Below are positions 14,234 to 35,776 of a stretch of 39,252 nt of DNA, in pieces. The DNA lies in assembly GCA_029210725.1 (NCBI GenBank), contig JARGFM010000009.1:1-39252 (forward strand). The letters run 5' to 3'. The translations under genes were made by a program, and so were the position numbers. The stretch is from Bacteroidales bacterium. GTDB taxonomy: Bacteria; Bacteroidota; Bacteroidia; Bacteroidales; GCA-2748055. Within the stretch, counting starts at the first letter, position 1. Every line of letters starts with the position of its first letter. Below the pieces are notes generated by a model that was not told where the DNA came from, did not search any database, and worked only from the letters and a program-made list of their open reading frames with translations.

Positions 14234-15688
14234 TTAGATGTTGTAGGTGGATGAGCTGGTATCTCCCCCTCTTCCGGTCCAGTTGGTATGGAAAAATTCA
14301 CCCCGTGGCCTGTCGACGCGTTCATAGGTATGCGCCCCGAAATAATCCCGCTGAGCCTGCAACATATTGGCAGGAAGTCGTTCCGACCGGTAGCCGTCAA
14401 AATAATTCAGCGCCGTGGTAAAGGCCGGAACAGGAATCCCATTCACCAGGGCTGTGGCAACCACTTTGCGCCAGCCCTCCTGGGCAGCCTCCACTTTTCC
14501 CTTAAAGAAAGGATCCAGCAGCAGGTTAGGGAGGGCAGGATTCCGATCAAAAGCCTCCTTTATTTTGTCCAGGAAGGCCGAGCGGATGATGCATCCCCCT
14601 CTCCACAGCAGGGCAATCCCTCCGTAATTCAGTTCCCAGTCATACTCCCTGGCTGCCTCACGCATCAGCGTGTATCCCTGGGCATAGGACACGATCTTGG
14701 AGGCATAGAGGGCGCTCCGGATATCCTGGATAAAGATCTCCCGGTCGCCTCCGTAGGAAGGGACAGGACCCGAGAGTAGTTTTGAAGCTTCCACCCTTTC
14801 TTCCTTGAGGGCGGAGAGGCACCTGGCAAATACCGATTCCCCGATCAGTGTCAGTGGGATTCCCAGGTTCAGAGCCTCGATCCCGGTCCACTTCCCGGTT
14901 CCCTTCTGTCCGGCTGTATCCAGAATCTTCTCCAGCAGGGGTTCTCCATCCTTATCCCTAAAACCCAGAATATCCCGGGTAATCTCAATCAGATAACTGT
15001 CCAGCTCCCCTTTGTTCCATTCTGCGAACACATCGTGCATCTCATCTGCACTCATTCCCAGCAGGTTCTTCATAAGGTTGTATGCCTCGCTGATCAATTG
15101 CATATCCCCGTATTCAATACCATTGTGCACCATCTTCACAAAATGACCGGCTCCATCTTCCCCCACCCAGTCGCAGCAGGGAGTGCCATCCTCCACTTTG
15201 GCCGATATGGCCTGGAAAATATTTTTCACGTGCGGCCAGGCATCCGCCGACCCACCGGGCATGATGGAAGGACCCAGGAGAGCTCCCTCCTCCCCTCCCG
15301 AAACGCCGGTTCCAATATACAGCAGGCCTTTGCTCTCCACGTAACGGGTCCGGCGAACGGTGTCCGGAAAATGAGAGTTTCCCCCGTCAATGATTATATC
15401 GCCCTTCTCCAGGTGGGGAATCAGTATCTCGATAAAGTCATCCACCGGTTTTCCGGCCTTTACCAGCAGCATCACTTTCCTGGGTCTTTCCAGGGAAGCA
15501 ATGAACTCTTCCATGGAGTGCGCTCCCTTGAAATTTTTATTCTTTCCCCGGCCGTTCATAAACTTATCCACCTTCTCAAGGGTGCGATTATAAACAGCCA
15601 CTGTAAAGCCGTTTCGCTCCATGTTCAGCACCAGGTTCTCACCCATAACTGCCAGTCCGATCAGTCCGATATCTGCTTTTGCTTTCAT
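14234..15688 (-). CDS. gnd: 6-phosphogluconate dehydrogenase, decarboxylating
   Basis: 484 residues. Oxidises and decarboxylates 6-phosphogluconate to ribulose 5-phosphate with NADP(H) or NAD(H). The Rossmann loop is 'GLAVMGENLVLNM'. 'GGNSHFPDT' and 'GTGVSGGEEGA' bind substrate, and the catalytic Lys/Glu helix is 'HFVKMVHNGIEYGDMQ'. The C-terminal tail ends with a Thr/Ser-rich segment after 'HTNWTGRGGDT'. Length is typical of the long dimeric form. No glucose-6-phosphate dehydrogenase is adjacent. Instead, gnd is 44 bp downstream of pdxB at the end of the LacI-led uronate operon, with no obvious promoter in the gap, suggesting a role beyond the ordinary pentose phosphate pathway. Confidence 0.95.
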   Translation of the reverse strand: MKAKADIGLIGLAVMGENLVLNMERNGFTVAVYNRTLEKVDKFMNGRGKNKNFKGAHSMEEFIASLERPRKVMLLVKAGKPVDDFIEILIPHLEKGDIIIDGGNSHFPDTVRRTRYVESKGLLYIGTGVSGGEEGALLGPSIMPGGSADAWPHVKNIFQAISAKVEDGTPCCDWVGEDGAGHFVKMVHNGIEYGDMQLISEAYNLMKNLLGMSADEMHDVFAEWNKGELDSYLIEITRDILGFRDKDGEPLLEKILDTAGQKGTGKWTGIEALNLGIPLTLIGESVFARCLSALKEERVEASKLLSGPVPSYGGDREIFIQDIRSALYASKIVSYAQGYTLMREAAREYDWELNYGGIALLWRGGCIIRSAFLDKIKEAFDRNPALPNLLLDPFFKGKVEAAQEGWRKVVATALVNGIPVPAFTTALNYFDGYRSERLPANMLQAQRDYFGAHTYERVDRPRGEFFHTNWTGRGGDTSSSTYNI

Positions 15689-15732
15689 TCTTTTTGCTTT
15701 AATTTTTTAATTGATTCTATGATGTTTCATTT

Positions 15733-16875
15733 TCACATACACTGATCCGACAGGACATCAAATCCCAGTTCCTCCAGGATGCCTCTTAACTCAGGATATC
15801 CCTGGAACAGCCGGACCGCAAAGGCAGGCGGTTCCCGTCGAAAGGGGTAATCGCCCCGTAAGATCTCAAAGTGATCCGGAGAGTTCCTGAAGCGTTGATC
15901 GTCCAGACCAATATCATAGCCTTTTCTGTATATATCCCATAAGAGCTCTGTAAGCCTGGAATCACCAGCATCGGCAAGTATCTCCGGATGGTCCGGAGCG
16001 GGGATACCGTCAGGGGCCCACAAATCCAGTCCCAGATCAAAGAATCGGCTGAGGGAACGAACCGACATGGTGGTGCCATTGGCCTTTCCATCCAGCGAAT
16101 AACCTGCGATATGCGGGGTTGCCAGTGTAAGGATATCCAGCAGGTCCCTGTTAACGTCCGGTTCGTTTTCATATACATCCAGGATCACATCGGATAATAT
16201 TCCCTCACGGATCCCTTCCGGAAGTGCCTCCTCATCCACCACGGCTCCTCGGGAAGAATTAAGCAGGATGGTCCCTTTATTCAGGGAAGAAATAAACTCC
16301 CTGTCCACCATATGGAAGGTGTTATCCACGCCCCCTTTGTTCAGAGGAACATGCAGGCTGATAATATCCGATTTTTCCTTCAACTCCTCCAGAGTGACAA
16401 ACTCCGCACTGCCCTCTGCCCGCGTGCGGGGTGGATCATAAAGCAGCACTTTCATTCCAAGCGTCCTGCCTGCATGGGCTACTTTGCTTCCCACATTCCC
16501 GACACCGATGACCCCCAAGGAAAGTCCCCTGAGCTCGAAGCGGCGATGGACTGCCAGCCAGAGCAGGGCAGAGACCACATACTGCTCCACCGAAGAGGAG
16601 TTGCAGCCCGGGGCATTGGTCCAGCCGATCCCGTTCTCCGTGCAATAGGAGGTATCGATATGATCGTAACCGATGGTAGCCGATGCAATAAACCTGATTG
16701 AGGTCCCTTCCAGCAGCTCTCTGTTACACCGGGTACGCGTCCGTATAATTAAAGCATCGGCATCCAGGAGCTGCTTCCGGGAAATCTCACTACCGGGAAG
16801 ATACTCCACCCTGGCTCTGTCCTCCAGCGCCCCTGCCAGGAAAGGGATTTTATGGTCGGCAACTATCTTAATCAT
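15733..16875 (-). CDS. pdxB: Erythronate-4-phosphate dehydrogenase
   Basis: 380 residues from ATG 16875 (ATG 16878 also possible). The 'ATGATTAAG' start overlaps the TAA of the upstream LarA-like gene, so translation is coupled. Oxidises 4-phosphoerythronate in DXP-dependent vitamin B6 synthesis. PdxB features: N-terminal 'IVADHKIPF', 'SATIGYDHID', 'NAPGCNSSSVEQYV', Rossmann loop 'GVGNVG', catalytic Arg in 'SSRGAVVDEEAL', Glu in 'YENEPDV', His in 'TPHIAGYSLDGKANGTT', and a C-terminal dimerisation domain that plain hydroxyacid dehydrogenases lack. No other pdx gene is nearby. Its partners are a uronate reductase, a racemase homolog and gnd. 4-phosphoerythronate is known to inhibit 6-phosphogluconate dehydrogenase, so a protective role is plausible. 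Confidence 0.9.
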   Translation of the reverse strand: MIKIVADHKIPFLAGALEDRARVEYLPGSEISRKQLLDADALIIRTRTRCNRELLEGTSIRFIASATIGYDHIDTSYCTENGIGWTNAPGCNSSSVEQYVVSALLWLAVHRRFELRGLSLGVIGVGNVGSKVAHAGRTLGMKVLLYDPPRTRAEGSAEFVTLEELKEKSDIISLHVPLNKGGVDNTFHMVDREFISSLNKGTILLNSSRGAVVDEEALPEGIREGILSDVILDVYENEPDVNRDLLDILTLATPHIAGYSLDGKANGTTMSVRSLSRFFDLGLDLWAPDGIPAPDHPEILADAGDSRLTELLWDIYRKGYDIGLDDQRFRNSPDHFEILRGDYPFRREPPAFAVRLFQGYPELRGILEELGFDVLSDQCM

Positions 16876-18154
16876 CATCCTTCGTTTTGAACTTATCCTT
16901 CCAGGCCCATAATCCCAGTGCAGGATTTGAGATATAGTATACCTGCTCGCCGTCGGGCATGATATTAAATCCATCTCTCATGATCCGGGGATTATAACGG
17001 GCCCATGTCTCCTCCAGCTCAGCAAAGCCGTAGTTTACCGCTTCGATCTCCTGCCTTGATAAATGACCGGGGCAGTAAGTTACATGAAACCTCCCCTCCG
17101 TGGACCCGTGGATCAGGTGAGCCGCTGCACTCAGATTCTGCTTCAGATCGCTGTTCTCTTCCACGGCTTGTAATATTTCCGGAGTGGTCCGATAGGCGTA
17201 TTTCCGGATCAGCCGGTCTATTTCAGCATCTTCGCCAAACTCTTTCAGGCCGGGTGCCAGAACCAGCAACTCTCCGCCATCGGCCATGGCCATCCGCGTC
17301 CTGTATATACTCTTGTTTCCCAGCCAGGTACTTTTAAATTCACCGGGCTCCAGGTATACCACCACCTTGGAAAGGGGTTCCTCCAGCATCTGGAAATTGA
17401 CCTTCAGGGAGAGTGCGGAGGCTTTCAAAAAACACTCTTCATCATCCCCGATAAAGAGTCCGCGTACCACCAGATCACCGGAGTGGTTCCGGCCCACCAC
17501 TGAAAGAATATAAACAATGGGAAGTCCAGCAGCAAAATGGTCCGAAGCATAGTTCAGCACTTCCCTGACCGGCGTTGAGGCCCGGCCCATAATTCGCTCC
17601 ATCCCGAAAGCAGCTCCCAGGTAATGGCTCTTGTTGATCCCTTCCGGCCCGCCGGTCCCAACAAAAATATTCTTATTGTAATTGGCCATTCCTGTCACCT
17701 CATGGGGGACCACCTGCCCGATGGACAGGATCAGGTCGTGCCCGCCCTCCGACAGGAGCCTGTTGACCTGTGCAGGCCAGGAATAGCTGACCCTCCCCTC
17801 CGAAACTGTTTCAATAAAGGAGGGGGGCACCTCTCCCAGGGTAACGACATCCTTTCGCCAATCGTGAATCCTGAATAAGGATGGGGGCACCGCCCCATAC
17901 ATCCGGCTGATCTCCTCCCCGGTCATGGCCCGGTGTGTGCCCAGGGCCGGAAGCACATCGGTCAGGTGTCTGCCGAAATACTCCCAGGCGATCTCGGTCA
18001 TCCGCCCTGCCATACTGTGAACCCTGGTTATATCAGGCGGCACGGCCAGAACCCTCTTCCTGGGACCGATTTTTTGAAATACACCGGTCAGAGCCTTTGC
18101 GATCGTCCGGTCTGTGAGCACCTCACCGGGTGCGCCCTGTTCAAAATAGATCAT
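16868..18154 (-). CDS. LarA-like nickel-pincer racemase/epimerase homolog
   Basis: 428 residues from ATG 18154, which has GGAGGAG six bases upstream inside the end of the preceding gene; the TTG at 18169 is rejected. The family (DUF2088/lactate racemase) uses a nickel pincer nucleotide to epimerise 2-hydroxyacids. Residues matching LarA are present: His74 in 'LGTHR', His151 in 'VPHEVTG', Lys161 in 'NYNKNIF' and His177 in 'NKSH'. The 10- and 16-residue spacings equal those of LarA His174, Lys184 and His200, from memory. 'PPDITR' is also family-like. It sits between UxuB and PdxB, so the substrate is probably a sugar acid such as mannonate/gluconate rather than lactate. No larB, larC or larE cofactor gene is in the window. 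Confidence 0.82.
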   Translation of the reverse strand: MIYFEQGAPGEVLTDRTIAKALTGVFQKIGPRKRVLAVPPDITRVHSMAGRMTEIAWEYFGRHLTDVLPALGTHRAMTGEEISRMYGAVPPSLFRIHDWRKDVVTLGEVPPSFIETVSEGRVSYSWPAQVNRLLSEGGHDLILSIGQVVPHEVTGMANYNKNIFVGTGGPEGINKSHYLGAAFGMERIMGRASTPVREVLNYASDHFAAGLPIVYILSVVGRNHSGDLVVRGLFIGDDEECFLKASALSLKVNFQMLEEPLSKVVVYLEPGEFKSTWLGNKSIYRTRMAMADGGELLVLAPGLKEFGEDAEIDRLIRKYAYRTTPEILQAVEENSDLKQNLSAAAHLIHGSTEGRFHVTYCPGHLSRQEIEAVNYGFAELEETWARYNPRIMRDGFNIMPDGEQVYYISNPALGLWAWKDKFKTKDDD

Positions 18155-18155
18155 T

Positions 18156-19007
18156 CTACACTCCTCCAAATGCGTTGTATCCCCCGTCCACCGGGATACA
18201 GATTCCGGTAATAAAACGGCTCATATCCGATACGAGATAGAGCAGAGTGCCATTCAAATCGTCCGGCGCCCCAAACACCCCCATGGGAGTATTGGCAATA
18301 ATCTTCTCCCCCCGGGGTGTCAGAGCGCCTGTATGTTCATCGGTAAGCAGGAAGCGGTTCTGATTGGTCAGGAAGAACCCGGGTGCTATGGCATTCACCC
18401 TCACCCCCACTCTGGCAAAATGGACCGCCAGCCATTCGGTAAAGTTATTAATGGATGCTTTGGCTGCCGAATAGGCCGGAATCTTCGTGAGCGGCTTATA
18501 GGCATTCATGGAGGAGATATTCAGAACCACCCCGCTCTGGCGCATGACCATATCCCTGGTAAAAACCATGGTTGGAAGAAGGGTTCCCGTGAAATTGAGC
18601 TGAAACACCTTTTGAAACCCCTCCAGTTCCAGTCCAAAAAATCCGTCCTCCAGATGATCCAGCTCCCCGACGGTAATCTGTTCCAGTAAGGTAGTGGCCT
18701 TTGGAGAATTCCCGCCTGCTCCGTTGATCAGAATATCGATCTCACCCAGCTCTCTCCTTATTTTTTCTCTCACCTTATCCAGGGAGTTCCTGTCCAGCAC
18801 ATCGGCCCTGAATCCATAACTTCTGATCCCCAGTTCGGCCGTAATACCAGAGGCTGCTTTCTTTGCGGCCCCTTCATCAATGTCCAGGATTACTGTAATG
18901 ACCCCGGCTGCAGCAAGCCCCCTGGCCATGGAGGTCCCCAGCACTCCGCCGCCTCCCGTGATTACACATATTTTGTTCCTTAAGCCAAGCAATGCCGGAT
19001 GTTCCAT
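18156..19007 (-). CDS. uxuB: SDR-type D-mannonate oxidoreductase (fructuronate reductase)
   Basis: 283 residues. Short-chain dehydrogenase with 'TGGGGVLG' cofactor loop (17-24), 'NGAGGNSPKATT' and catalytic Ser and Tyr-x3-Lys ('SSMNAY', 'YSAAK'). The 'GAGGNSP' extension and the insertion before the active site are typical of the SDR-type UxuB described in Bacillus, which reduces D-fructuronate to D-mannonate. The start follows the LacI stop with no gap, and the stop is 1 bp from the LarA-like start. UxaE and UxaC across the divergent promoter make fructuronate, supporting the assignment. Another sugar-acid dehydrogenase of this subfamily cannot be excluded. Confidence 0.85.
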   Translation of the reverse strand: MEHPALLGLRNKICVITGGGGVLGTSMARGLAAAGVITVILDIDEGAAKKAASGITAELGIRSYGFRADVLDRNSLDKVREKIRRELGEIDILINGAGGNSPKATTLLEQITVGELDHLEDGFFGLELEGFQKVFQLNFTGTLLPTMVFTRDMVMRQSGVVLNISSMNAYKPLTKIPAYSAAKASINNFTEWLAVHFARVGVRVNAIAPGFFLTNQNRFLLTDEHTGALTPRGEKIIANTPMGVFGAPDDLNGTLLYLVSDMSRFITGICIPVDGGYNAFGGV

Positions 19008-20069
19008 CTATTCAGAGGTATTAGTTTGATAAAAACGCAGATTTTCACGGGTGATAATATCAATGGGAAGCCACTGTTTCGCTTCAGGTTTCCGATTAAA
19101 AACCACCAGGTTAAACAGGGATAACAAACCCTTGTAGGCCTGTTCTTCAGGCTTTTGAGAAAGCAGGAAGTCGATACGTCCCAGTTTCAGATATTCGATA
19201 TTTTCCGGAAGCAGGTCATAACCCACCAGCCGGACCCGGTCCCGCCCCGTTTCTTCCAGGAAACGGGCCACCTTATGGACCCTTGAATTGGTCACAAATA
19301 GTCCGGAAATATCATGAGCTGCACAAAGCCTGCCCAGCTCCTCCTTCAGCATAAGGTCATCGGCCCCATTCAGATCTATGCTCAGCAGATGTTTCCGTTT
19401 ACCCTTCAAATGTGCAAAATGATCTCTGAATCCCCTCTCCCTCTCAATGATGTGAGCATAGTGCTCCTTTCTGGCAGACAAATTCACAATGGCCACATCC
19501 TTTTCTGGTTCCAATCCGTAAAGGACCAGCCGGGCAGCTACGTAACCGCTTTGATAAGCATCCTGCCCTACAAAACTGCTTACAAAGGCAGAGTCGAGCA
19601 GGGAGTTGAAGAGGATCACCGGAAGATTCGCAGCGGCGCAGCGGCCCAGGAATGCCATGGATTCTTCTGTAAAGACCGGGGCAAAAAGGACTCCCTCGGC
19701 CTTCTCATAAGGAAAACGATCCAGGATGGCCGTAAAACTCTCCCGGTCTACCTGGTCGAAGTAAAAAGGGTGAAGATGTATATGATTTTGGTCCAGCGCT
19801 TCAAGGGCCTGGCGGATCCCCTGTCGTGGCAGCTCCCAAAAGGTATGATCACTAACAACACCCGGCATCACCACAGCCAGGTGGATATCTCGCTTCATGG
19901 CCAGTGAACGGGCTGCAATATCGGGTTTGTAGTCGAACTGTTGCAACAGTTTCCGGACCTTCTCACGCGTGGAAGGAGATACCTCTCCGCGATTATGGAT
20001 CACCCGGTCAACGGTTCCCACGGAAACCCTGGCAATTTCAGCAATATCCTTGATCCTGATCTTAGCCAT
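19008..20069 (-). CDS. LacI-family transcriptional regulator of the hexuronate locus
   Basis: 353 residues. The N-terminal helix-turn-helix and hinge ('IKDIAEIARVSVGTVDRVIHN', continuing to 'KPDIAARSLA') occupy residues 5-58. The rest is a periplasmic-binding-protein-like effector domain of the sugar type, with 'DRFPYEKAEGVLFAPV' and 'GYVAARLV' blocks. It is first in the leftward operon and divergent from uxaE, the usual place for a local repressor. The likely operator is the palindrome at 20177-20196. The effector is presumably a uronate intermediate; which one is not evident. Confidence 0.9.
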   Translation of the reverse strand: MAKIRIKDIAEIARVSVGTVDRVIHNRGEVSPSTREKVRKLLQQFDYKPDIAARSLAMKRDIHLAVVMPGVVSDHTFWELPRQGIRQALEALDQNHIHLHPFYFDQVDRESFTAILDRFPYEKAEGVLFAPVFTEESMAFLGRCAAANLPVILFNSLLDSAFVSSFVGQDAYQSGYVAARLVLYGLEPEKDVAIVNLSARKEHYAHIIERERGFRDHFAHLKGKRKHLLSIDLNGADDLMLKEELGRLCAAHDISGLFVTNSRVHKVARFLEETGRDRVRLVGYDLLPENIEYLKLGRIDFLLSQKPEEQAYKGLLSLFNLVVFNRKPEAKQWLPIDIITRENLRFYQTNTSE

Positions 20070-20131
20070 ATACCTTTTATTTCAACAGCCTGCGACAGGC
20101 ATCCACCTGAAACTGTTCCGCTTTCGTGGAC

Positions 20132-20139
20132 CAAAATTA
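20132..20139 (-). promoter_or_regulatory. Likely -7 element for the LacI-uxuB-larA-pdxB-gnd operon
   Basis: TAATTTTG on the - strand matches TAnnTTTG, about 63 nt before the LacI ATG. No TTTG -33 box is in register. A TTTCGTGG sequence at 20122-20129, resembling half of the proposed operator, lies at the predicted start site and would allow autoregulation. Confidence 0.4.
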
Positions 20140-20176
20140 CGTATTTTTTTTAGGAAAAAGTCACTAAATTTCTTAA

Positions 20177-20196
20177 TTTCGTGTCCGTACACGGAA
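20177..20196. promoter_or_regulatory. Putative LacI-family operator
   Basis: CGTGTCCGTACACG at 20180-20193 is a 14-bp near-palindrome with central CG, the hallmark of LacI-family operators. The symmetry extends outward to TT and AA two bases away. It lies 17 bp upstream of the uxaE ATG and overlaps a TAATTTCG sequence (20174-20181) that may be a weak -7 element, so binding would block uxaE-uxaC transcription. Confidence 0.6.
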
Positions 20197-20209
20197 ATCC
20201 GTTAATCCT

Positions 20210-21451
20210 ATGAAATTAGAGAAGTACTCCCTGGGAATAGGAGACAGGTTCGGTCAGCAGGGACCTGCCCAGCTAAAGGCCCTGATACAGGCCAGAGACC
20301 TGGGAATAGAAATGGTCCCGGTATGGAACAAATCAAACCGCGAACACCAGATCGTACGCTCCTCTCCAAAGGATACCCTCCTGGAGGCGGAGACTGCGGT
20401 CAGGGAGCTGAATTGGGAACACCCTTATTATGTGGATGCGGACCATATCAATCTGAAGACGGTGGACCCCTTCCTGGATTATGCCAACTTTTTCACCCTC
20501 GATGTGGCCGGTTCTATTGGTTCCGGGATCAAGGAGCATGAACTTAGGGAGTTCCTGGAAGTAGCTTCTGCCTATGCAGGAAAACTTGCCATACCCGGGA
20601 TAAAGAAACCTTTTACAGTAAGCGAAAAACAGCTGATCAAGATCGCCGGGGATTTCCTGGCAGCGGTTCGTGAAGCGGAAGCCATTTATACCCGTATTGC
20701 CGGAAGCAAGGGAGCTGACAACTTTATTGCAGAGATCTCCATGGATGAAGTGGAAGAAGCTCAAACACCCGCTGAGCTGTTTTTCATCCTGATGATGATT
20801 AGTCATTATGAAATCCCGGCCCAGACCATCGCCCCGAAATTTACAGGCAGGTTTAACAAGGGGGTTGATTATGAGGGCGATGTTAAACGGTTCAGAAAAG
20901 AGTTTGAAGAGAACCTGCTGGTCATCGATTTTGCAGTGAAATCCTTCGGACTGCCACCAAACCTCAAGCTGAGTGTGCATTCGGGAAGTGACAAATTCAC
21001 CATTTACCCCGTCATGGGTGAGCTGATTAAAAAACATAATGCAGGAATCCATGTGAAAACCGCCGGGACCACCTGGCTCGAGGAGCTCGTCGGACTGGCG
21101 ATGGCCGGCGGGGATGCCTTGCAGATGGCCGGGGAAATCTATCGCAGTGCCTATGAAAGAAGGGAGGAACTGTGCGGACCTTACCAGGCCGTTATTGATA
21201 TAGATGCTGCCACGCTGCCCGACCCGGAAGAGGTGCTGCATTGGAACAGTCAAAAATTCGCCACCACCCTCAGGCATATTCCCGGCCATCCCAACTACCA
21301 TCCTGGCTTCCGTCAGCTGCTGCATGTGGGGTATAAGGTGGCTGCAGAGATGGGAGAGGTCTACCTGACCATGATCCGCTCACATGGCGAATTGATTGGC
21401 GAACAGGTAAGGAGCAATATTTTTGAAAGACACATACAAAGATTGTTTTAA
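20210..21451 (+). CDS. uxaE: Tagaturonate epimerase
   Basis: 413 residues. UxaE epimerises D-tagaturonate at C3 to D-fructuronate, linking galacturonate to the glucuronate branch. Shared with the Thermotoga enzyme, as I recall it, are 'GIGDRFG' at the start, 'DADHIN' (metal-site Asp/His), 'ISMDEVEEAQTP', 'SVHSGSDKFTIYP' and 'IHVKTAGTTWLE'. The protein starts at the first of these motifs, so it lacks the roughly 80-residue N-terminal extension of the Thermotoga protein; no upstream start could add it, because an intergenic regulatory region precedes the ATG. uxaC starts 11 bp downstream in the same operon. Confidence 0.85.
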   Translation: MKLEKYSLGIGDRFGQQGPAQLKALIQARDLGIEMVPVWNKSNREHQIVRSSPKDTLLEAETAVRELNWEHPYYVDADHINLKTVDPFLDYANFFTLDVAGSIGSGIKEHELREFLEVASAYAGKLAIPGIKKPFTVSEKQLIKIAGDFLAAVREAEAIYTRIAGSKGADNFIAEISMDEVEEAQTPAELFFILMMISHYEIPAQTIAPKFTGRFNKGVDYEGDVKRFRKEFEENLLVIDFAVKSFGLPPNLKLSVHSGSDKFTIYPVMGELIKKHNAGIHVKTAGTTWLEELVGLAMAGGDALQMAGEIYRSAYERREELCGPYQAVIDIDAATLPDPEEVLHWNSQKFATTLRHIPGHPNYHPGFRQLLHVGYKVAAEMGEVYLTMIRSHGELIGEQVRSNIFERHIQRLF

Positions 21452-21462
21452 GGGAACAGCCC

Positions 21463-22866
21463 ATGAAGAAGTTTCTGGACAAAGATTTCCTGCTGGAGAG
21501 TGAAACAGCCCGAAGGCTCTACCACGAAGTGGCTGCCGGTATGCCCATTATTGACTATCACTGTCACCTGGATCCCGGACTGATTGCAGAAGATGCGAAA
21601 TTTGAGAACCTGACTCAGGTCTGGTTGTCAGGGGATCATTACAAATGGAGAGCCATGCGTGCCAACGGGGTGGAGGAGCGATACTGCACGGGAGACGCCT
21701 CAGATGAGGAAAAATTCAAAAAATGGGCCGCCACGGTTCCCGACACCCTGCGAAACCCGCTTTATCACTGGACACACCTGGAACTGGAGCGCTATTTTGG
21801 TATCCGTGATCTGCTGAATGAGGAGAGTGCTCCCTTCATCTACCAGCAGGCAGGGGAATTGCTTCAATCGGATTCTTTCAGTGTGCGCAAGCTGATTCGG
21901 AAGATGAATGTGGAAGTGATTTGTACCACCGATGATCCTGTGGACTCTCTGGAGCACCATCGGAAGATCAGAGAGGATGGATTTGAAACCAGGGTACTTC
22001 CCGCCTGGAGACCTGACAAGTCTATGGCTGTGGAAGATCCGGCTGCATACAACCTTTACCTGGACAGACTGGAACAGGCTTCAGATACCTCCATTTCCTC
22101 CTATATGGATCTGCTGACCGCACTGCAGGAAAGACACGATTTCTTTCACCAGATGGGCTGCCGCCTTTCGGACCACGGTCTGGAAGTCTTCCATGCTGAA
22201 GAATTTGACCACCAGGACATTGAAAAGATTTTTCTAAAGATAAGAAAGGGACGAGCCCTGAATCAGCTGGAAGTGGAGCGTTTTAAGTCTGCCATGCTCA
22301 TCGAACTGGCCGTCATGGATCATGAAACAGGCTGGACCCAGCAGTTTCATGTAGGTGCTATCCGGAATAATAACAGCCGCCGTTTCCTTGAACTGGGTCC
22401 CGACACCGGCTTCGATTCCATAGGAGATCTTTTAATGGCCAGGTCCATGTCCAGGTTCCTGGACCGTCTGGACCAGCAAAACCAACTGACAAAAACCATT
22501 GTTTACAACCTCAATCCAAGGGACAATGCCCTGATTCTTACCATGCTCAATAATTTCAACGATGGCCTGATTCCCGGGAAAATGCAGTTTGGTTCAGGAT
22601 GGTGGTTTATGGATCAGAAATATGGAATGACCGAGCAGTTAAACACCCTCTCTACCCTGGGACTGCTTAGCCGGTTTGTGGGAATGCTGACCGATTCCAG
22701 AAGCTTTCTCTCCTACCCGCGCCATGAATATTTCCGCAGGATTCTCTGTAACCTTGTGGGTGGAGATGTGGAACGGGGTGAGATCCCGAACCAGGCTTCC
22801 CTGATTGATAATCTGGTAAAGAATGTGTGTTATTACAACGCAAAAGAGTATTTTGCGCTGAAGTAA
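21463..22866 (+). CDS. uxaC: Uronate isomerase (glucuronate/galacturonate isomerase)
   Basis: 467 residues, the usual UxaC length. Amidohydrolase-superfamily enzyme that converts D-glucuronate to D-fructuronate and D-galacturonate to D-tagaturonate. The metal-binding 'DYHCHLDP' is near residue 30, and 'VWLSGDHYKWRAMR', 'TTDDPVDSLEHH' and 'NPRDN' are family signatures. It sits 11 bp after uxaE. With UxaE and UxuB it forms a complete route from both hexuronates to mannonate. The downstream DUF5686 gene starts 11 bp after its stop and may be read through. Confidence 0.95.
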   Translation: MKKFLDKDFLLESETARRLYHEVAAGMPIIDYHCHLDPGLIAEDAKFENLTQVWLSGDHYKWRAMRANGVEERYCTGDASDEEKFKKWAATVPDTLRNPLYHWTHLELERYFGIRDLLNEESAPFIYQQAGELLQSDSFSVRKLIRKMNVEVICTTDDPVDSLEHHRKIREDGFETRVLPAWRPDKSMAVEDPAAYNLYLDRLEQASDTSISSYMDLLTALQERHDFFHQMGCRLSDHGLEVFHAEEFDHQDIEKIFLKIRKGRALNQLEVERFKSAMLIELAVMDHETGWTQQFHVGAIRNNNSRRFLELGPDTGFDSIGDLLMARSMSRFLDRLDQQNQLTKTIVYNLNPRDNALILTMLNNFNDGLIPGKMQFGSGWWFMDQKYGMTEQLNTLSTLGLLSRFVGMLTDSRSFLSYPRHEYFRRILCNLVGGDVERGEIPNQASLIDNLVKNVCYYNAKEYFALK

Positions 22867-27451: not shown

Positions 27452-28294
27452 ATGAGTAAAATCCATTATGAAGTGAGATTTTCGAATCATCCCGAAGATA
27501 CCAGACTATACGGGACCGGGAGATTGAGGAAAGAGTTCCTGGTAGAGAAATTGATGGTACCCGGAGAAATCCATATGGTTTATTCAATGAACGACCGTTA
27601 TATCGTGGGGGGGGCGGTTCCTGTCTCCGAACTGGAACTGACCGGCATCGATCCGCTGAGATCAGCCTATTTTTGTGAACGCCGGGAGCTGGGCATCATC
27701 AATGTGGGGGGAGCGGCTACCATCCGGGTAGACGATATCGAATATGACCTGGACTATAAGGAAGCCCTCTATGTGGGTGCGGGATCCCGGCATATCAGGA
27801 TGATCAGCAGAGTGGAGGAGAGACCGGCACATCTCTATTTCAATTCAGCTCCTGCCCATCAGTCCTATCCATCCAGAAGAGTTACCCTGGCAGATGCTGA
27901 GGTGGCAGAACTGGGAAGCCTGGAGCAATCCAATGCCAGAAAGATCAATAAGCTTCTGGTCCATCCGCTGGTAAAGACCTGCCAGTTGCAGATGGGGATG
28001 ACCGAATTAAAACATGGATCCGTATGGAACACCATGCCGCCTCACCTGCATGACCGCAGGATGGAAGCCTACTTCTATTTTGAGCTTCCTGAAGGGCAGG
28101 CGATCTGTCACTTTATGGGTGATCCAAAGGAGACCAGACATATCTGGCTGCAGAACGAACAGGCGGTCATTTCTCCTCCATGGTCCATCCATTCCGCAGC
28201 AGGGACAAGCAACTATATCTTTATCTGGGGAATGGCCGGGGAGAATCTGGATTACGCAGACATGGATATGTTTCAACCCGATGAATTGCGCTAA
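27452..28294 (+). CDS. kduI: 5-dehydro-4-deoxy-D-glucuronate isomerase
   Basis: 280 residues, near the 278 of E. coli KduI. Isomerises 5-dehydro-4-deoxyglucuronate, the open form of the unsaturated uronate released by polysaccharide lyases, to 3-deoxy-D-glycero-2,5-hexodiulosonate. Double cupin fold. The zinc ligands appear in 'PPHLHDRRMEAYFYF' (two His and a Glu) and 'WSIHSAAGT' (His). It is the first gene of the rightward operon running to 36940, with kduD 10 bp downstream. A TAACTTTA sequence at 27418-27425 may be a one-mismatch -7 element. Confidence 0.95.
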   Translation: MSKIHYEVRFSNHPEDTRLYGTGRLRKEFLVEKLMVPGEIHMVYSMNDRYIVGGAVPVSELELTGIDPLRSAYFCERRELGIINVGGAATIRVDDIEYDLDYKEALYVGAGSRHIRMISRVEERPAHLYFNSAPAHQSYPSRRVTLADAEVAELGSLEQSNARKINKLLVHPLVKTCQLQMGMTELKHGSVWNTMPPHLHDRRMEAYFYFELPEGQAICHFMGDPKETRHIWLQNEQAVISPPWSIHSAAGTSNYIFIWGMAGENLDYADMDMFQPDELR

Positions 28295-28304
28295 TACTTA
28301 AGGC

Positions 28305-29096
28305 ATGTCGCAGCTACTATTTGATCTGAAAGGAAAAACAGCCCTGATCACAGGGGGGACCCATGGACTGGGCATGGCCATTGCCACAGGACTGGCAGAG
28401 GCGGGGGCCTCTATTATTATCAACGGCCACAGTCCGGCTAAACTTGAGTCTGCCCGGCAAACCTATGCCAATAAGGGGATCAGCGCCCACACCTATCTGC
28501 TTGATATACGCGATGAAGCTGAAGCAGAGAGGATCATTCCCATCATGGAAAAGGAGGCGGGCCCCATTGATATTCTGGTTAATAACGCGGCCATTATCAA
28601 AAGAATTCCGATCCTGGAGATGAAAGCAGCGGATTTCCGGGAAATCCTGGATGTAAACCTGACCGGCCAGTTTATCATGGCAAAAGCAGTGGCCAGGGGG
28701 ATGGTCAGGCGCAGGAGCGGGAAAATCATCAATATTTGCTCCATGATGAGTGAACTGGGAAGGGATACTGTTTCCGCCTATGCTGCTGCCAAAGGCGGAT
28801 TGAAAATGCTCACCCGGAACATGGCCACCGAATGGGCCAGATACAACATCCAGATCAACGGCCTGGGCCCGGGCTACTTTGCCACCGAGCAGACCGCTCC
28901 TCTGCGTGCTAAAGGACATCCTTTAAATGAATTTATTATTGCCCGGACACCGGCCGGCAGATGGGGAAATCCGGAAGACCTGGCCGGAACAGCCGTATTT
29001 CTGGCCTCCCGAGCATCCGATTTTGTAAACGGTCAGATTATTTATGTAGATGGAGGAATCCTGGCCACCATTGGAAAACCTTCCAACGAAGAATAA
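28305..29096 (+). CDS. kduD: 2-dehydro-3-deoxy-D-gluconate 5-dehydrogenase
   Basis: 263 residues. Short-chain dehydrogenase that reduces the KduI product to 2-keto-3-deoxygluconate. 'TGGTHGLGMA' is the cofactor loop, 'NNAAI' the structural motif, and Ser in 'CSMMSE' with 'YAAAKGG' gives the catalytic residues. 'GPGYFATEQT' and 'VDGGILAT' are typical near the C-terminus. Placement 10 bp after kduI makes KduD much more likely than other SDR activities, including the related gluconate 5-dehydrogenase. Confidence 0.9.
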   Translation: MSQLLFDLKGKTALITGGTHGLGMAIATGLAEAGASIIINGHSPAKLESARQTYANKGISAHTYLLDIRDEAEAERIIPIMEKEAGPIDILVNNAAIIKRIPILEMKAADFREILDVNLTGQFIMAKAVARGMVRRRSGKIINICSMMSELGRDTVSAYAAAKGGLKMLTRNMATEWARYNIQINGLGPGYFATEQTAPLRAKGHPLNEFIIARTPAGRWGNPEDLAGTAVFLASRASDFVNGQIIYVDGGILATIGKPSNEE

Positions 29097-29205
29097 GATG
29101 AGCAAAACAAGCATCCTGTGCCTTTTCCTGTCTAAGCTATTAAAAAGTATTTAAAGGCTGAGGCTGAAAGATGGACCCGGGCGGTGGTCCCTGCGAATTG
29201 AGTTA

Positions 29206-29234
29206 TTTGTTTTATGGCAAGAATTATATCTTTA
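29206..29234 (+). promoter_or_regulatory. Possible internal promoter before the KDPG aldolase gene
   Basis: TTTG at 29206-29209 and TATCTTTA at 29227-29234 approximate the Bacteroidetes promoter, with 17-bp spacing (19-20 is usual) and one -7 mismatch. The 190-bp gap after kduD holds no gene and no clear terminator. Confidence 0.3.
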
Positions 29235-29286
29235 CCCGATAAACTCTACTTTAAAATCTGCAAGCCGTTATTCTAAAAGCCATACC

Positions 29287-29949
29287 ATGAAGAGACTTGA
29301 TGTTGTACTGAGCATGAGGGAGACTGGAGCGATCCCCCTTTTCTACCATCCCGATATTGAAGTCATGAAAGAGGTAATCTCCGCATGCTACCGTGGAGGT
29401 ATGAACATCTTCGAGTTCACCAACCGGGGCGATATGGCACATGAGCTTTTTGCAGAACTGGTCGTCTGGGGCCGCAAAGAGTTGCCCGGTCTGATCCTGG
29501 GTGCAGGGACGGTGGTTGACGCCGGAACCTGCTCGCTTTATATCCAGACAGGGGCCAGATTTATTGTATCCCCCCTGCTCAATGAGGAGATGGCCCGGGT
29601 ATGCAACCGCCGTAAGGTCCTCTGGGTCCCCGGATGCGCCACTGCCTCTGAAATCGGGAGAGCCGAAGAGCTTGGGGCCGAGCTGGTGAAACTCTTTCCA
29701 GGTCCCACCGTAGGAGGAGCCGATTTCTTAAAAGCCTACCTGGGGCCCTGTCCCTGGTCCAGTATCATGCCCTCGGGAGGAGTATCTCCCACCCTTGAAA
29801 ACCTCAGCGGATGGTTCAGGGCCGGCGCATTCTGTGTGGGGATGGGTTCCCGGTTGATTACCGGGGAGATCATCAGCCAGGCGAATTATAAGCTCCTGGA
29901 AGAGACCGCCAGAGAGGCCATGGAGATCATCCGAAATCTGAAGGGATAA
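29287..29949 (+). CDS. eda: 2-dehydro-3-deoxy-phosphogluconate (KDPG) aldolase
   Basis: 220 residues. Class I aldolase cleaving KDPG to pyruvate and glyceraldehyde 3-phosphate. The catalytic Glu lies in 'IFEFTNRG', 'GAGTV' forms the phosphate/substrate loop, the Schiff-base Lys is in 'ELVKLFPG', and 'MPSGGVSPT' binds phosphate. Length is normal. It follows KduI and KduD in pathway order, with the KDG kinase candidate at 37001-38074 supplying its substrate. The first TRAP gene begins 6 bp after its stop. Confidence 0.92.
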   Translation: MKRLDVVLSMRETGAIPLFYHPDIEVMKEVISACYRGGMNIFEFTNRGDMAHELFAELVVWGRKELPGLILGAGTVVDAGTCSLYIQTGARFIVSPLLNEEMARVCNRRKVLWVPGCATASEIGRAEELGAELVKLFPGPTVGGADFLKAYLGPCPWSSIMPSGGVSPTLENLSGWFRAGAFCVGMGSRLITGEIISQANYKLLEETAREAMEIIRNLKG

Positions 29950-29955
29950 GTGCAT

Positions 29956-30933
29956 ATGAAGATCCGCTCAATACTTATTCTGCCTCTTTTTCTGTGTTTA
30001 GTTGCCGGTTGCAGAACTCAGCAGCAGGGAGAGGCTCTGAAACTGGCCCACGGGCTCGATCCCTCCCACCCGGTGCACAGTGCCATGGTCTATATGGCAG
30101 AAAGGTGCCGGGAAATCTCAAACGGTGCATTAACCATTGATATATACCCCAGCGGTCAGCTTGGGTCTGAACAACAGTGCGTGGAGCTCCTGCAGATTGG
30201 CAGCCTGGCCATTACCAAAGTTTCGGCCGCAGTCATGGAAAGTTTTACCGAAGAGTTCAAGGTCCTGGGCCTGCCTTACGTGTTCAGGTCCAAGGAGCAC
30301 TCCTTCCAGGTTCTGGACGGAGAGATCGGGGATGAATTACTGCTAAGTACGGAACCCTTCTGGATCAGGGGCCTCTGCTTCTACGATGCAGGAAGCCGGA
30401 GTTTTTACACCATTGACAAACAGATCAATCACCCTGATGATTTGAAGGGCTTAAAAATCAGGGTCATGAAAAGCATCACTGCCATGGAAATGGTTAAAGC
30501 CCAGGGGGGCTCCCCCACCCCGATCTCCTGGGGTGAACTTTACACAGCCCTGCAAAGCGGTGTGGTGGACGGTGCCGAGAACAATCCTCCCAGTTTCTAT
30601 ACCAGTCACCACTACGAAGTCTGTAAGTACTACAGCCTGAACGAACATACCATGGTACCCGATGTACTTATTATCAGTCAGAAGGTATGGGGAAAACTCT
30701 CTGCCCGGGAACAAAGCTGGCTGCAGCAGGCGGCCGACGAGTCGGTTCCGGTTCAGAGAAAACTCTGGGCCGAATCCGAAAAAATGTCCCTGGAGATCGT
30801 TAAGGAGGCTGGAGTTGTGATCAGCTATCCCGACAAGGCACCCTTTTCAGAGAGGGTCACTGAATTGCTGGAATCGTACCGGGAAAATGAAAAACTGTAT
30901 GATCTGATCACCCGGATCAGGGAAGTACAATAG
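29956..30933 (+). CDS. TRAP transporter solute-binding lipoprotein (DctP family)
   Basis: 325 residues from ATG 29956; the GTG at 29950 is less likely. The signal is a lipoprotein type with lipobox VAGC, so the binding protein is tethered to a membrane rather than free, as often in Bacteroidota. The DctP family pattern is clear: 'GSEQQCVELLQIGSL', 'LKGLKIRVM' with the Arg that salt-bridges the carboxylate of the ligand, and 'LQSGVVDGAENNP'. Downstream of a KDPG aldolase and uronate genes, the ligand is probably a hexuronate or unsaturated uronate monomer. Confidence 0.92.
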   Translation: MKIRSILILPLFLCLVAGCRTQQQGEALKLAHGLDPSHPVHSAMVYMAERCREISNGALTIDIYPSGQLGSEQQCVELLQIGSLAITKVSAAVMESFTEEFKVLGLPYVFRSKEHSFQVLDGEIGDELLLSTEPFWIRGLCFYDAGSRSFYTIDKQINHPDDLKGLKIRVMKSITAMEMVKAQGGSPTPISWGELYTALQSGVVDGAENNPPSFYTSHHYEVCKYYSLNEHTMVPDVLIISQKVWGKLSAREQSWLQQAADESVPVQRKLWAESEKMSLEIVKEAGVVISYPDKAPFSERVTELLESYRENEKLYDLITRIREVQ

Positions 30934-30949
30934 TGACAAAGCTGTGCCA

Positions 30950-31420
30950 ATGAGAAAATTTCAATATAAGTTAAACAGAGTGCTGGAGCTAAGCCTGGTC
31001 ATCCTGATGACCATCCTGGTGCTGGATGTGCTCTGGCAGGTATTCAGTCGTTACCTGCTCTCCTCTCCCAGCTCATTTACAGATGAACTCGCCGGCTTCC
31101 TTTTAATCTGGGTGGGGGTGCTGGGTGCAGCCTATGTTGCCGGCAGAAAGGAACACCTGGCCATCGATATCCTGGTTCAGAGATCGCCGCCAGGCAGGCA
31201 GCGCCTGCTGCTTTTCATCATTCACTCCCTGATCTTTTTGTTTGCCCTCTCGGTCATGGTCACCGGCGGAGTGGTATTGATGTATACCCGCTTTGCCCTG
31301 CAGGTAAAATCAGCAGCCCTTCAGCTTCCACTGGGCTATGTTTATGTGGTGCTTCCCATCAGCGGACTGATCATCATGTATTACGAAGTGCTGCATATCC
31401 TTCAATTAAAAAAAACCTGA
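30950..31420 (+). CDS. TRAP transporter small permease (DctQ family)
   Basis: 156 residues from ATG 30950 (GTG 30944 is an alternative). Four membrane helices are evident, about 10-32, 45-65, 83-105 and 125-145. The family motif near helix 1-2 reads 'WQVFSRYLL', followed by 'FTDELAGFLLIWVGVLGAAYV'. It stabilises the large permease. It lies between the binding-protein and DctM genes, with gaps of 16 and 4 bp. Confidence 0.9.
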   Translation: MRKFQYKLNRVLELSLVILMTILVLDVLWQVFSRYLLSSPSSFTDELAGFLLIWVGVLGAAYVAGRKEHLAIDILVQRSPPGRQRLLLFIIHSLIFLFALSVMVTGGVVLMYTRFALQVKSAALQLPLGYVYVVLPISGLIIMYYEVLHILQLKKT

Positions 31421-31424
31421 TCGC

Positions 31425-32879
31425 ATGGAAGTTCTGGTGCTTGTCCTCAGCTTTGCTCTCCTCTTACTGATCGGAGTGCCCATTGCCTTCAGTATAGGCA
31501 TCTCCGGGATCCTGACCATGTTGCTCTCCATCGACACCGTGCCGGCCCTGACCACTTTCGCCCAGCGGATGGCTACCGGTCTGGACAGCTTTGCCCTGCT
31601 GGCCATTCCTTTCTTTGTGCTGGCAGGAGGTATCATGAACAGCGGAGGGATTGCCATGCGGCTAATCAACTTTGCCAGGGTACTGGTGGGTAAACTTCCT
31701 GCCGGACTGGCCTTTGTAAATGTGATTGCCAATATGCTTTTTGGTGCTATTTCAGGTTCTGCCGCAGCGGCTACTTCCGCCATAGGCAGTATCATGGGAC
31801 CTGAAATGAAAAAGGAAGGATATGATGAGAGTTTCAGCACCGCTGTCAATATCACCTCGGCCACCACAGGGCTTACCATCCCTCCCAGTAATATCCTGAT
31901 TATATATTCCCTGGCCAGCGGCGGGGCCTCCATTACCGCACTCTTCCTGGCCGGATATATCCCAGGAATACTCACGGGACTCGGAATCATGCTGGTTGCC
32001 ATGTCGATGATGGTTTTGAAAAACAGGGGACTGAAAGGGCTGACTGCCCTGCTGGGCAAGGTGCTCCTGGTCTCTGTGGCCCTGGTGGGAGCCGGGATCG
32101 GACTGAAAGCGGTGCATGGAGTTTCTGTTATGGCTTTCAGGGGACTTATTTACGCCCTGTTCACCCTGTTCCTGGCATATTCGGTCTACAAGTCGGCCAC
32201 CAACTGGTCATTTTTCAAATTCGCCATCAGGAAATTTATCGATGCCCTGCCATCCTTGCTAATGCTGGTCATTGTCATTGGAGGAATCGTAGCTGGCTTT
32301 TTCACTGCTACCGAAGCATCGGCCGTGGCCGTACTCTATGCACTGATCCTTGCCCTGATCTATAAAGAGATCAGCCTGAAGAATCTTCCGGCTATCATTC
32401 TGAAATCGGTGCGCACCACCTGTATTGTGCTGCTGCTGGTGGCCACCAGCATCGGGATGTCATGGATCATGTCTTATGAAAACATCCCGCAAAATGTAAG
32501 CAACGGTCTGTTGAATCTCAGCGACAATCCCCTGATTATCCTGCTGGTTATCAATTTTATCCTTCTCGTTGTGGGAATTTTTATGGATATGACTCCGGCT
32601 GTTCTGATTTTCACTCCCATTTTTTTGCCAGTTGTTTCCGCCCAGCTGGGCATGGATCCCGTCCATTTTGGTATTATCATTGTACTGAACCTCTGCGTGG
32701 GGATCTGCACCCCGCCTGTGGGATCTGTCCTGTTCATCGGTTGCAGTGTGGCAAATCTGAAAATTGAGCAGGTGATCAAACCCCTGCTGCCCATGTTTAT
32801 CATCATGATAGTGGTCCTGATGCTGGTAACTTACATTCCCTCACTGAGCCTTTGGCTCCCCAATCTGCTTATGAAATAA
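31425..32879 (+). CDS. TRAP transporter large permease (DctM family)
   Basis: 484 residues, somewhat longer than the usual 425-430 because of an extra hydrophobic stretch near residues 190-260. Multiple membrane helices span its length. DctM signatures include 'GVPIAFSIGISG', 'ALLAIPFFVLAGGIMNSGGIAMR', 'GAISGSAAAATSAIGSIM', 'TIPPSNILIIY' and 'VCTPPVG'-like 'GICTPPVG'. Sodium-driven uptake with the binding protein and DctQ. The stop at 32879 is 15 bp before the kinase ATG. Confidence 0.93.
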   Translation: MEVLVLVLSFALLLLIGVPIAFSIGISGILTMLLSIDTVPALTTFAQRMATGLDSFALLAIPFFVLAGGIMNSGGIAMRLINFARVLVGKLPAGLAFVNVIANMLFGAISGSAAAATSAIGSIMGPEMKKEGYDESFSTAVNITSATTGLTIPPSNILIIYSLASGGASITALFLAGYIPGILTGLGIMLVAMSMMVLKNRGLKGLTALLGKVLLVSVALVGAGIGLKAVHGVSVMAFRGLIYALFTLFLAYSVYKSATNWSFFKFAIRKFIDALPSLLMLVIVIGGIVAGFFTATEASAVAVLYALILALIYKEISLKNLPAIILKSVRTTCIVLLLVATSIGMSWIMSYENIPQNVSNGLLNLSDNPLIILLVINFILLVVGIFMDMTPAVLIFTPIFLPVVSAQLGMDPVHFGIIIVLNLCVGICTPPVGSVLFIGCSVANLKIEQVIKPLLPMFIIMIVVLMLVTYIPSLSLWLPNLLMK

Positions 32880-32894
32880 TTGAACCAACTCGCT

Positions 32895-34385: not shown

Positions 34386-34422
34386 TGTCTGATATTCAAA
34401 TAATCGATTAAATAAAAATGCA

Positions 34423-35754: not shown

Positions 35755-35776
35755 ATCATATTCTTAACTAAAAGGT

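Follow-up and report, generated by a model that had tools for sequence, protein, structure and literature searches.

A 39,252-nucleotide stretch of DNA from a Bacteroidales bacterium (assembly GCA_029210725.1, contig JARGFM010000009.1, positions 1 to 39,252; hereafter the window) carries a hexuronate locus which probably encodes a dehydratase-free pathway leading from mannonate through gluconate and 6-phosphogluconate to ribulose-5-phosphate by way of a nickel-dependent LarA homologue and a PfkB-family kinase. The window opens contig C9, which is 135,695 bases long, in a 3.81 Mb genome that is 98.6% complete. In the proposed pathway UxaC would isomerise galacturonate and glucuronate, sugar acids that come from pectin and plant glucuronates, UxaE would interconvert tagaturonate and fructuronate, and a short-chain dehydrogenase/reductase (SDR) would reduce fructuronate to D-mannonate. 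The LarA homologue, with its nickel-pincer cofactor, would invert C2 to give D-gluconate, a kinase would convert gluconate to 6-phosphogluconate, and 6-phosphogluconate dehydrogenase (Gnd) would decarboxylate this to ribulose-5-phosphate, returning the reducing equivalent spent by the SDR. The pathway is already published in principle and is not new as an idea, a mannonate-to-gluconate bypass having been proposed for Thermotoga maritima by Rodionova 2012 (cited in PMC6978723 and PMC7583248).

Five genes on the reverse strand form a leftward operon, lacI-SDR-larA-pdxB-gnd (14234-20069), with successive gaps of 0, 1, -11 and 44 bp. It is led by a LacI-family regulator (19008-20069) with a LacI helix-turn-helix and a periplasmic-binding-like domain, followed by the SDR in the UxuB/UxaD role of fructuronate reductase/D-mannonate oxidoreductase (18156-19007; NF006132, 369 bits, cut-off 281), the LarA homologue, a putative nickel-pincer hexonate 2-epimerase of group 18 (16868-18154), PdxB, a 4-phosphoerythronate dehydrogenase (15733-16878), and Gnd, NADP-dependent and decarboxylating (14234-15688; TIGR00873, 778 bits, cut-off 427). 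The ATG was taken as the start of the LarA homologue, a TTG at 18169 being a possible alternative, and the PdxB start is the ATG picked by agreement with PdxB relatives, the start in the open reading frame (ORF) list being 16974. Divergent from this operon, on the forward strand, are the tagaturonate-fructuronate epimerase gene uxaE (20210-21451; Pfam PF16257, 185 bits, cut-off 27.1) and the uronate isomerase gene uxaC (21463-22866; NF002794, 655 bits, cut-off 387). The gene calls bear out the first-pass annotation of this DNA, which had described the leftward genes as having zero-to-overlapping spacing with a 44-bp gap before gnd and as diverging from uxaE-uxaC. Consensus promoters and terminators were rarer than in shuffled sequence and the scan placed none inside the 44-bp gap, so that co-transcription of gnd with the operon is likely, if unproven.

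The region between lacI and uxaE contains a palindromic operator-like site (20178-20195) whose core, CGTGTnCGnACACG, lies at 20180-20193 with zero mismatches and is perfectly matched upstream of lacI in 15 of the 34 relative loci scanned (loci are numbered L and relative genomes G). The other 19 comprise L063, where the contig ends at lacI, L066, L072, L073, with one operator-like site carrying a mismatch, L074, L075 and a further 13 stretches that had been retrieved for different purposes. At up to 3 mismatches, a shuffled window is expected to hold 0.06 copies of the extended 18-mer; the window has one, with 1 mismatch. A second operator-like site occurs ~310-355 bp from the first in L064, L068, L071 and others, towards lacI and probably within that gene, which suggests possible looping. 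The contiguous order larA-pdxB-gnd is repeated in relatives from the same genus, family and order, and this recurrence places it beyond chance. Exceptions are L074 (G048), where pdxB-gnd is separate from larA; L066/L111 (G022), where PdxB comes after the SDR in the lacI operon and larA is at another place on the contig; and L072 (G029), where an ORF of 143 amino acids is called between larA and pdxB.

By its score of 641 bits, against a curated cut-off of 500, the LarA homologue falls within NF052594, "nickel-dependent putative hexonate epimerase", a family that corresponds to group 18 as defined in the LarA superfamily paper PMC7583248. In that 2020 study, members of groups 19 (GntE1) and 20 (GntE2) were shown to epimerise mannonate and gluconate, and D-mannonate/D-gluconate interconversion with the nickel-pincer nucleotide (NPN) has been shown for LarAH15 and LarAH10 (PMC11770544), consistent with the first-pass statement that a LarA relative with gluconate 2-epimerase activity had been reported. 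A profile built from ten group-18 proteins matches one PDB sequence, 4nar (GntE2), at 163 bits, and the NPN-binding, catalytic and signature positions of group 18 align with it; D, R, H, H-E, K, H, W, K and N positions are invariant in the ten relatives. The residues named in PMC7583248 for NPN binding, catalysis and substrate are among the aligned positions, and the alignment with 4nar together with the invariance in ten sequences indicates that group 18 retains the NPN-binding and catalytic residues. Group 18 is thus like GntE2 at the aligned NPN, catalytic and hexonate signature positions, but is placed by sequence, through the profile match, whereas GntE1 and GntE2 were assayed (PMC7583248). 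Of the NPN cofactor proteins LarB, LarC and LarE, the source genome encodes LarE and LarC, side by side with NikR on contig C16. A very distant second LarA-like match (C17:83823-84245, 18.7 bits) may mark another nickel-cofactor user.

PMC7583248 leaves the substrate of group 18, proposed from signature residues, as "a hexonate", and the enzyme could in principle have a different pair of hexonates as its substrates, such as altronate or galactonate epimers, with an indirect link to Gnd. We hold this to be very improbable: in known pathways the SDR and UxaE yield mannonate, and among hexonates only its C2 epimer gluconate reaches the Gnd substrate in two steps.

The canonical isomerase (Ashwell) pathway proceeds through mannonate dehydratase, UxuA, which the first-pass annotation had found absent from the window. 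The absence extends to the whole of the 98.6% complete genome, window included, where Pfam UxuA gave 0 matches in a search that was positive in five of 14 control genomes, Escherichia coli and Bacteroides ihuae among them. Edd is likewise missing from the genome, the sole member of the IlvD/Edd family being IlvD, and none of the five enolase-superfamily (PF13378) matches in the genome is ManD by cut-off (best 152.7 against 550). As candidates for ManD or an enolase-superfamily gluconate dehydratase, L021 (epimerase-like), L024 (MenC-like), L023 (a DgcA-like racemase) and L025 (enolase) were rejected. Even so, an unrecognised dehydratase might turn mannonate into 2-keto-3-deoxygluconate (KDG), with LarA, Gnd and PdxB accessory and the PfkB protein a second KDG kinase. 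The presence of KduI, KduD and Eda within the window (27452-29949, forward strand), which we read as a separate KDG route for unsaturated uronates, would fit such a scheme, as would the enolase-superfamily protein L022, which has no assignment in the genome. The L022 gene, however, adjoins a rhamnosidase, the linkage of LarA with Gnd extends across phyla, and the kinase evidence given below also speaks against a second KDG kinase; we consider this alternative distinctly unlikely.

The spread of the LarA homologue was assessed in two sets. In 61 relatives NF052594 matched 32 genomes, 28 over the cut-off, two through large pieces (G003, G006) and two weakly (G016, G030); with the weak matches left out, 30 of the 61 count as LarA genomes. 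A scan of named genomes gave at least 592 stretches, of which 574 were confirmed, and the best 80 loci, the basis of all counts out of 80, fall by record title in Bacteroidota, Ignavibacteriota, Planctomycetota, Verrucomicrobiota, Acidobacteriota and others; L122-L125 are probably the same records as relatives G013, G002, G015 and G020. Comparison of the operon across relatives, one of the checks proposed at first pass, favoured the pathway: beyond the recurrence of larA-pdxB-gnd, Gnd is encoded in 49 of the 80 loci, in 47 within 3 kb of larA. The SDR is found in 57, PdxB in 20 and UxuA in seven. Contig ends truncate many loci, and where 3 kb is available on both sides of larA (50 of 80), Gnd lies within 3 kb in 35. 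Separately, a Gfo/Idh/MocA-family oxidoreductase of ~331 amino acids occurs in 16 of the 80 loci (e.g. L182:11305-12291), often directly after larA.

The first-pass annotation held that the bypass needs only a gluconokinase, either elsewhere in the genome or a promiscuous FGGY kinase. No known FGGY or P-loop gluconokinase exceeds its cut-off in the genome. The six FGGY_N matches (five over the cut-off) are, by NCBIfam, GlpK, an XylB-like protein by XylA, a RhaB-like protein by a FucI-like gene, AraB, a ROK-family protein and a protein of 456 amino acids, none of them a gluconokinase by NCBIfam cut-offs, and the FGGY gene of the window is best read as a xylulokinase because xylose isomerase directly follows. 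For the P-loop gluconokinase GntK the best of nine matches scored 17.5 against a cut-off of 113.75 bits, and the best three, which were family-scanned, are CMP kinase, adenylylsulfate kinase and a shikimate-kinase-like protein. The source genome hence differs from the T. maritima type of route in having no match over the cut-off to a known gluconokinase (FGGY or P-loop GntK), the T. maritima GntK being, we presume, of the FGGY type. The nickel bypass from mannonate to gluconate is supported by the absence of UxuA, the hexonate-epimerase group, LarC and LarE, and the Gnd partner, while the FGGY part of the earlier proposal falls away in favour of another candidate, the PfkB-family protein at 37001-38074, which lies within the window beyond the coordinates of the first-pass annotation and fits the kinase role better than a promiscuous FGGY enzyme.

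This PfkB-family sugar-acid kinase (reverse strand, 34 bp downstream of a sulfatase gene), proposed to be a gluconokinase or alternatively a mannonate kinase, is most likely the kinase of the route, judging from its relatives in LarA loci. A PfkB closest to that of the window occurs in 36 of the 80 loci (25 at 62-76% identity, 11 at 34-41%), and a LarA-linked PfkB lies within 300 bp of larA in 30. Twelve further loci encode a diverged kinase related to pyrophosphate (PPi)-dependent phosphofructokinases, PFK425 (nine at 66-83%, three at 37-39%), usually followed by a HAD hydrolase; no locus has both kinases and 32 have neither. In the set of 50 loci that extend 3 kb either way, PfkB lies within 3 kb in 26 and PFK425 in eight. 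Whole-genome searches of the 61 relatives, counting PfkB at 70% identity or more and PFK425 at 76% or more, found PfkB in 21 and PFK425 in seven; at these thresholds 19 of the 30 LarA genomes have PfkB, seven have PFK425, four have neither (G007, G010 and G011, 69-85% complete, and G033, 100%) and none has both. PfkB without a group-18 LarA occurs in two genomes, G008 (58% complete) and G016 (88%). A tandem PfkB partner (33-36% identical) stands beside the kinase in L109, L112, L114 and L119 and is missing beside the window gene.

The kinase gene often lies directly upstream of larA, an order that would also suit phosphorylation first, with the PfkB protein acting as a mannonate kinase and LarA epimerising 6-phosphomannonate to 6-phosphogluconate, as in Lactobacillus suebicus extracts. 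Characterised GntE enzymes, however, use unphosphorylated mannonate, and group 18 has its signature positions in common with GntE2, so that we regard this order of events as unlikely.

PfkB-family KDG kinases are the closest structural comparison for the window protein. Its AlphaFold model (predicted local distance difference test score, pLDDT, 88) has T. maritima KDG kinase 2afb as its nearest PDB fold, and the window protein might still act as a KDG kinase. It shares the fold of KdgK (2afb, 1v19) and, with KDG-kinase-like sequences, the residues R119, N182, R184 and D299, which we take to have roles in binding and catalysis, but it stands on its own branch, is linked to larA and gnd, and carries D105, E122 and H269 where those sequences have E, S and N. 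In a PfkB tree of 60 rows, a branch with 98/97 support separates 38 window-type or LarA-linked rows (28 window-type and 10 Ignavibacteriota/Verrucomicrobiota PfkB) from the remaining 22, among them the KDG-kinase-like ones; the program issued a long-branch warning for this tree, and its rows come mostly from LarA loci, which makes larA proximity in the tree partly a matter of sampling. For two of the 22 other rows (L147, L185), too, larA is no more than two genes away. At positions 105, 122 and 269 (window numbering), all 38 window-type or LarA-linked rows carry D, E and H, against E, S and N in all 12 KDG-kinase-like rows. The source genome encodes a separate KDG-kinase-like PfkB at contig position 43197-44231, 3.9 kb past the window, from which the window protein is separated by the 98/97 split, and the KdgK family profile NF052444 gives the window protein 28 against a cut-off of 400. 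A LarA-linked PfkB is accompanied by a second PfkB in 12 of the 80 loci, the second being in the KDG-kinase-like branch in six (L129, L135, L164, L165, L200, L201), and L072 (G029) has the run UxuA, window-type PfkB, LarA, PdxB, Gnd, second PfkB, Eda. The exceptionless residue difference and these two-kinase loci speak against the PfkB protein as a second KDG kinase, and by such sequence comparisons it is not simply a KDG kinase.

PFK425 differs from its best solved relatives, the PPi-dependent phosphofructokinases, in having GGNDS against GGGDS in the best of these and in a proline (DPVLVLQAMG) against a lysine seven residues before MG. The basic residue at that position in E. coli PfkA presumably binds the 6-phosphate of the substrate, and its replacement by proline makes an unphosphorylated substrate plausible for PFK425, by analogy. 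GGNDS is present in 17 of the 18 PFK425 sequences read, the remaining one being a fragment; five of the 18 were chosen from relatives by their GG.DS motif, so that the count is not a test of the motif. Thirteen of the 18 show the DPV pattern; the other five are more distant, partial or unmatched. As a separate observation, a cassette of the PPi-dependent phosphofructokinase-like kinase and HAD stands between SDR and larA in L064 (10628-12956), L068, L069, L070, L071 and L074, and the relatives with this SDR-larA cassette have no window-type PfkB.

In a rapidly built LarA tree with 61 rows and weak resolution, the kinase type changes 15 times, and PFK425 against the rest changes 13 times, at least three of which are forced by starred branches. 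We read this as a single position in the locus being filled again and again by unrelated kinases, and hence as an argument for a common reaction; the poorly resolved tree, or transfer of larA, could be adding changes.

A number of observations weigh against the pathway or against the kinase assigned to it. The PfkB gene of the source genome lies outside the lacI operon, and no operator-like site was found near it in the window or in 12.7 kb of neighbouring sequence (L107, at up to 2 mismatches), nor at the scanned PfkB loci of relatives (up to 1 mismatch), leaving a common regulon for kinase and operon in this genome unsupported. Just three of the 21 PfkB orthologues of relatives are within a few genes of larA (G022, G029 and G040, corresponding to L066, L072 and L075); in G000, G002 and G015 the gene is 19-31 kb from larA on the same contig, and in six of the seven same-genus genomes read (G000, G002, G008, G012, G014, G015; the seventh, G016, is on a short contig) it adjoins xyl or lactonase genes and not larA. 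In 16 of the 50 loci that reach 3 kb either way from larA, neither kinase lies within that distance, and the five Acidobacteriota loci (L150, L168, L195, L196, L199) lack Gnd as well as a kinase; LarA may have another function in Acidobacteriota, or its partners may lie elsewhere. G040 encodes PfkB and, elsewhere, a 58%-identical PFK425 homologue, and the 13 PFK425 changes on the LarA tree compare with a shuffled mean of 14.9 and were as low in 75 of 500 shuffles, meaning that the kinase is hardly clustered. The nearest solved relatives of the window PfkB are KDG kinases, the FGGY protein of 456 amino acids (L004) has no NCBIfam assignment, and L022 is galactonate dehydratase-like, if below the cut-off (184 against 311 bits). 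UxuA is full-length in four of the 30 LarA genomes (G012, G019, G024, G029) and partial or broken in five more (G015, G017, G018, G022, G023), and the LarA route is therefore not always a substitute for UxuA. Finally, the literature searched yielded no measured activity for a group-18 LarA or for the window PfkB kinase.

PdxB is the operon member that the first-pass annotation left unexplained. The window protein exceeds its curated cut-off narrowly (NF001309, 437 against 434 bits), is the sole match over the cut-off in the genome and has solved PdxB structures as its best PDB matches. Of the 20 loci with PdxB, 18 have it directly beside Gnd; in L180 it is two genes from Gnd, and in L138 it stands at the end of a contig that shows no Gnd. 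PdxJ is encoded in the source genome and in 51 of the 61 relatives, and PdxB can therefore serve vitamin B6 synthesis; a role wholly outside B6 synthesis, as sole explanation, was rejected, PdxJ being present and this PdxB the only one over the cut-off. 4-Phosphoerythronate inhibits 6-phosphogluconate dehydrogenase, and Bacillus subtilis requires a phosphatase against it on carbon sources feeding the pentose phosphate pathway (PMC6449344). By analogy, we infer that PdxB beside Gnd may hold this inhibitor low, and it would then probably serve the B6 route and also remove 4-phosphoerythronate at high pentose-phosphate flux. The role is not universal, since Gnd occurs unaccompanied by PdxB in 30 of the 80 loci. 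The HAD phosphatase was considered as a PdxB substitute and set aside, there being no clean pattern (HAD with PdxB in three of the 80 loci, without it in 13).

The window clusters UxaE, a reductase, a LarA-family epimerase and Gnd, as does the gntE-gntK-gnd type of route of T. maritima, whose aldH-pelB-gnd-uxaRED-gntEK locus (UxaR regulon) also includes a gluconate kinase (PMC3750489). The two differ in the LarA group (20 for T. maritima GntE, PMC7583248; 18 here), the regulator (GntR-family UxaR against LacI), the kinase (GntK against a PfkB or phosphofructokinase-like protein in window-type loci) and in PdxB, which is in the window operon and does not figure in the gene list in the available part of PMC3750489; T. 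maritima also has uxuA, whereas the source genome has no UxuA match. Most genes of the two uronate operons of T. maritima are 2- to 5-fold up on pectin, and the organism does not grow on galacturonate or gluconate (PMC3750489). In L. suebicus, as proposed here, the upper isomerase pathway is joined to 6-phosphogluconate and Gnd and is redox-neutral to ribulose-5-phosphate, but mannonate is phosphorylated first, carbon passes on to phosphoketolase, and the available text assigns no kinase or epimerase genes (PMC6978723). A planctomycete study proposed a KDG route and, in the part available, reports no gluconokinase gene (PMC5673643). Within a literature search that covered few subscription papers, no PfkB- or phosphofructokinase-like kinase was found assigned to the gluconate or mannonate step, and no description was found of a LarA-Gnd uronate route in Bacteroidota. 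What is new are the probable hexonate-kinase families, the wide taxonomic spread and the PdxB-Gnd pairing.

Elsewhere in the window, genes for a DctPQM tripartite ATP-independent periplasmic (TRAP) transporter, the xylulokinase-like FGGY protein, XylA and a lactonase-family protein (29950-36940, forward strand) follow kduI, kduD and eda. The sulfatase gene runs from 38109 past the window end (39252) and is in-frame and intact in the following stretch, and a protein encoded at 4084-5478 combines an adenylate/guanylate cyclase domain with a subsequent HD domain.

In its broadest form the proposal is that the LarA-linked PfkB and its PPi-dependent phosphofructokinase-like replacement are two new, unrelated families of gluconate (or mannonate) kinases, which with group-18 LarA and Gnd would form a widespread nickel-dependent pathway from uronates to pentose phosphates in Bacteroidota, Ignavibacteriota, Planctomycetota and Verrucomicrobiota, PdxB having been recruited as a proofreader that converts 4-phosphoerythronate to a vitamin B6 precursor. 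This we advance tentatively, as quite possible and a little short of probable. It makes a concrete substrate prediction for LarA group 18 and offers candidate genes for a kinase step which goes undetected when the known gluconokinase families are searched for, and the kinase and epimerase pair is also relevant to the pathway genes of L. suebicus that lack assignment. If the proofreading role is true, the PdxB-Gnd pairing would be a bacterial answer that reuses 4-phosphoerythronate and does not destroy it. Should the pathway as a whole be true, many uncultured bacteria in at least four phyla would route uronic acids to pentose phosphate instead of KDG, which would change their predicted redox balance and fermentation products and tie their use of uronates to nickel supply.

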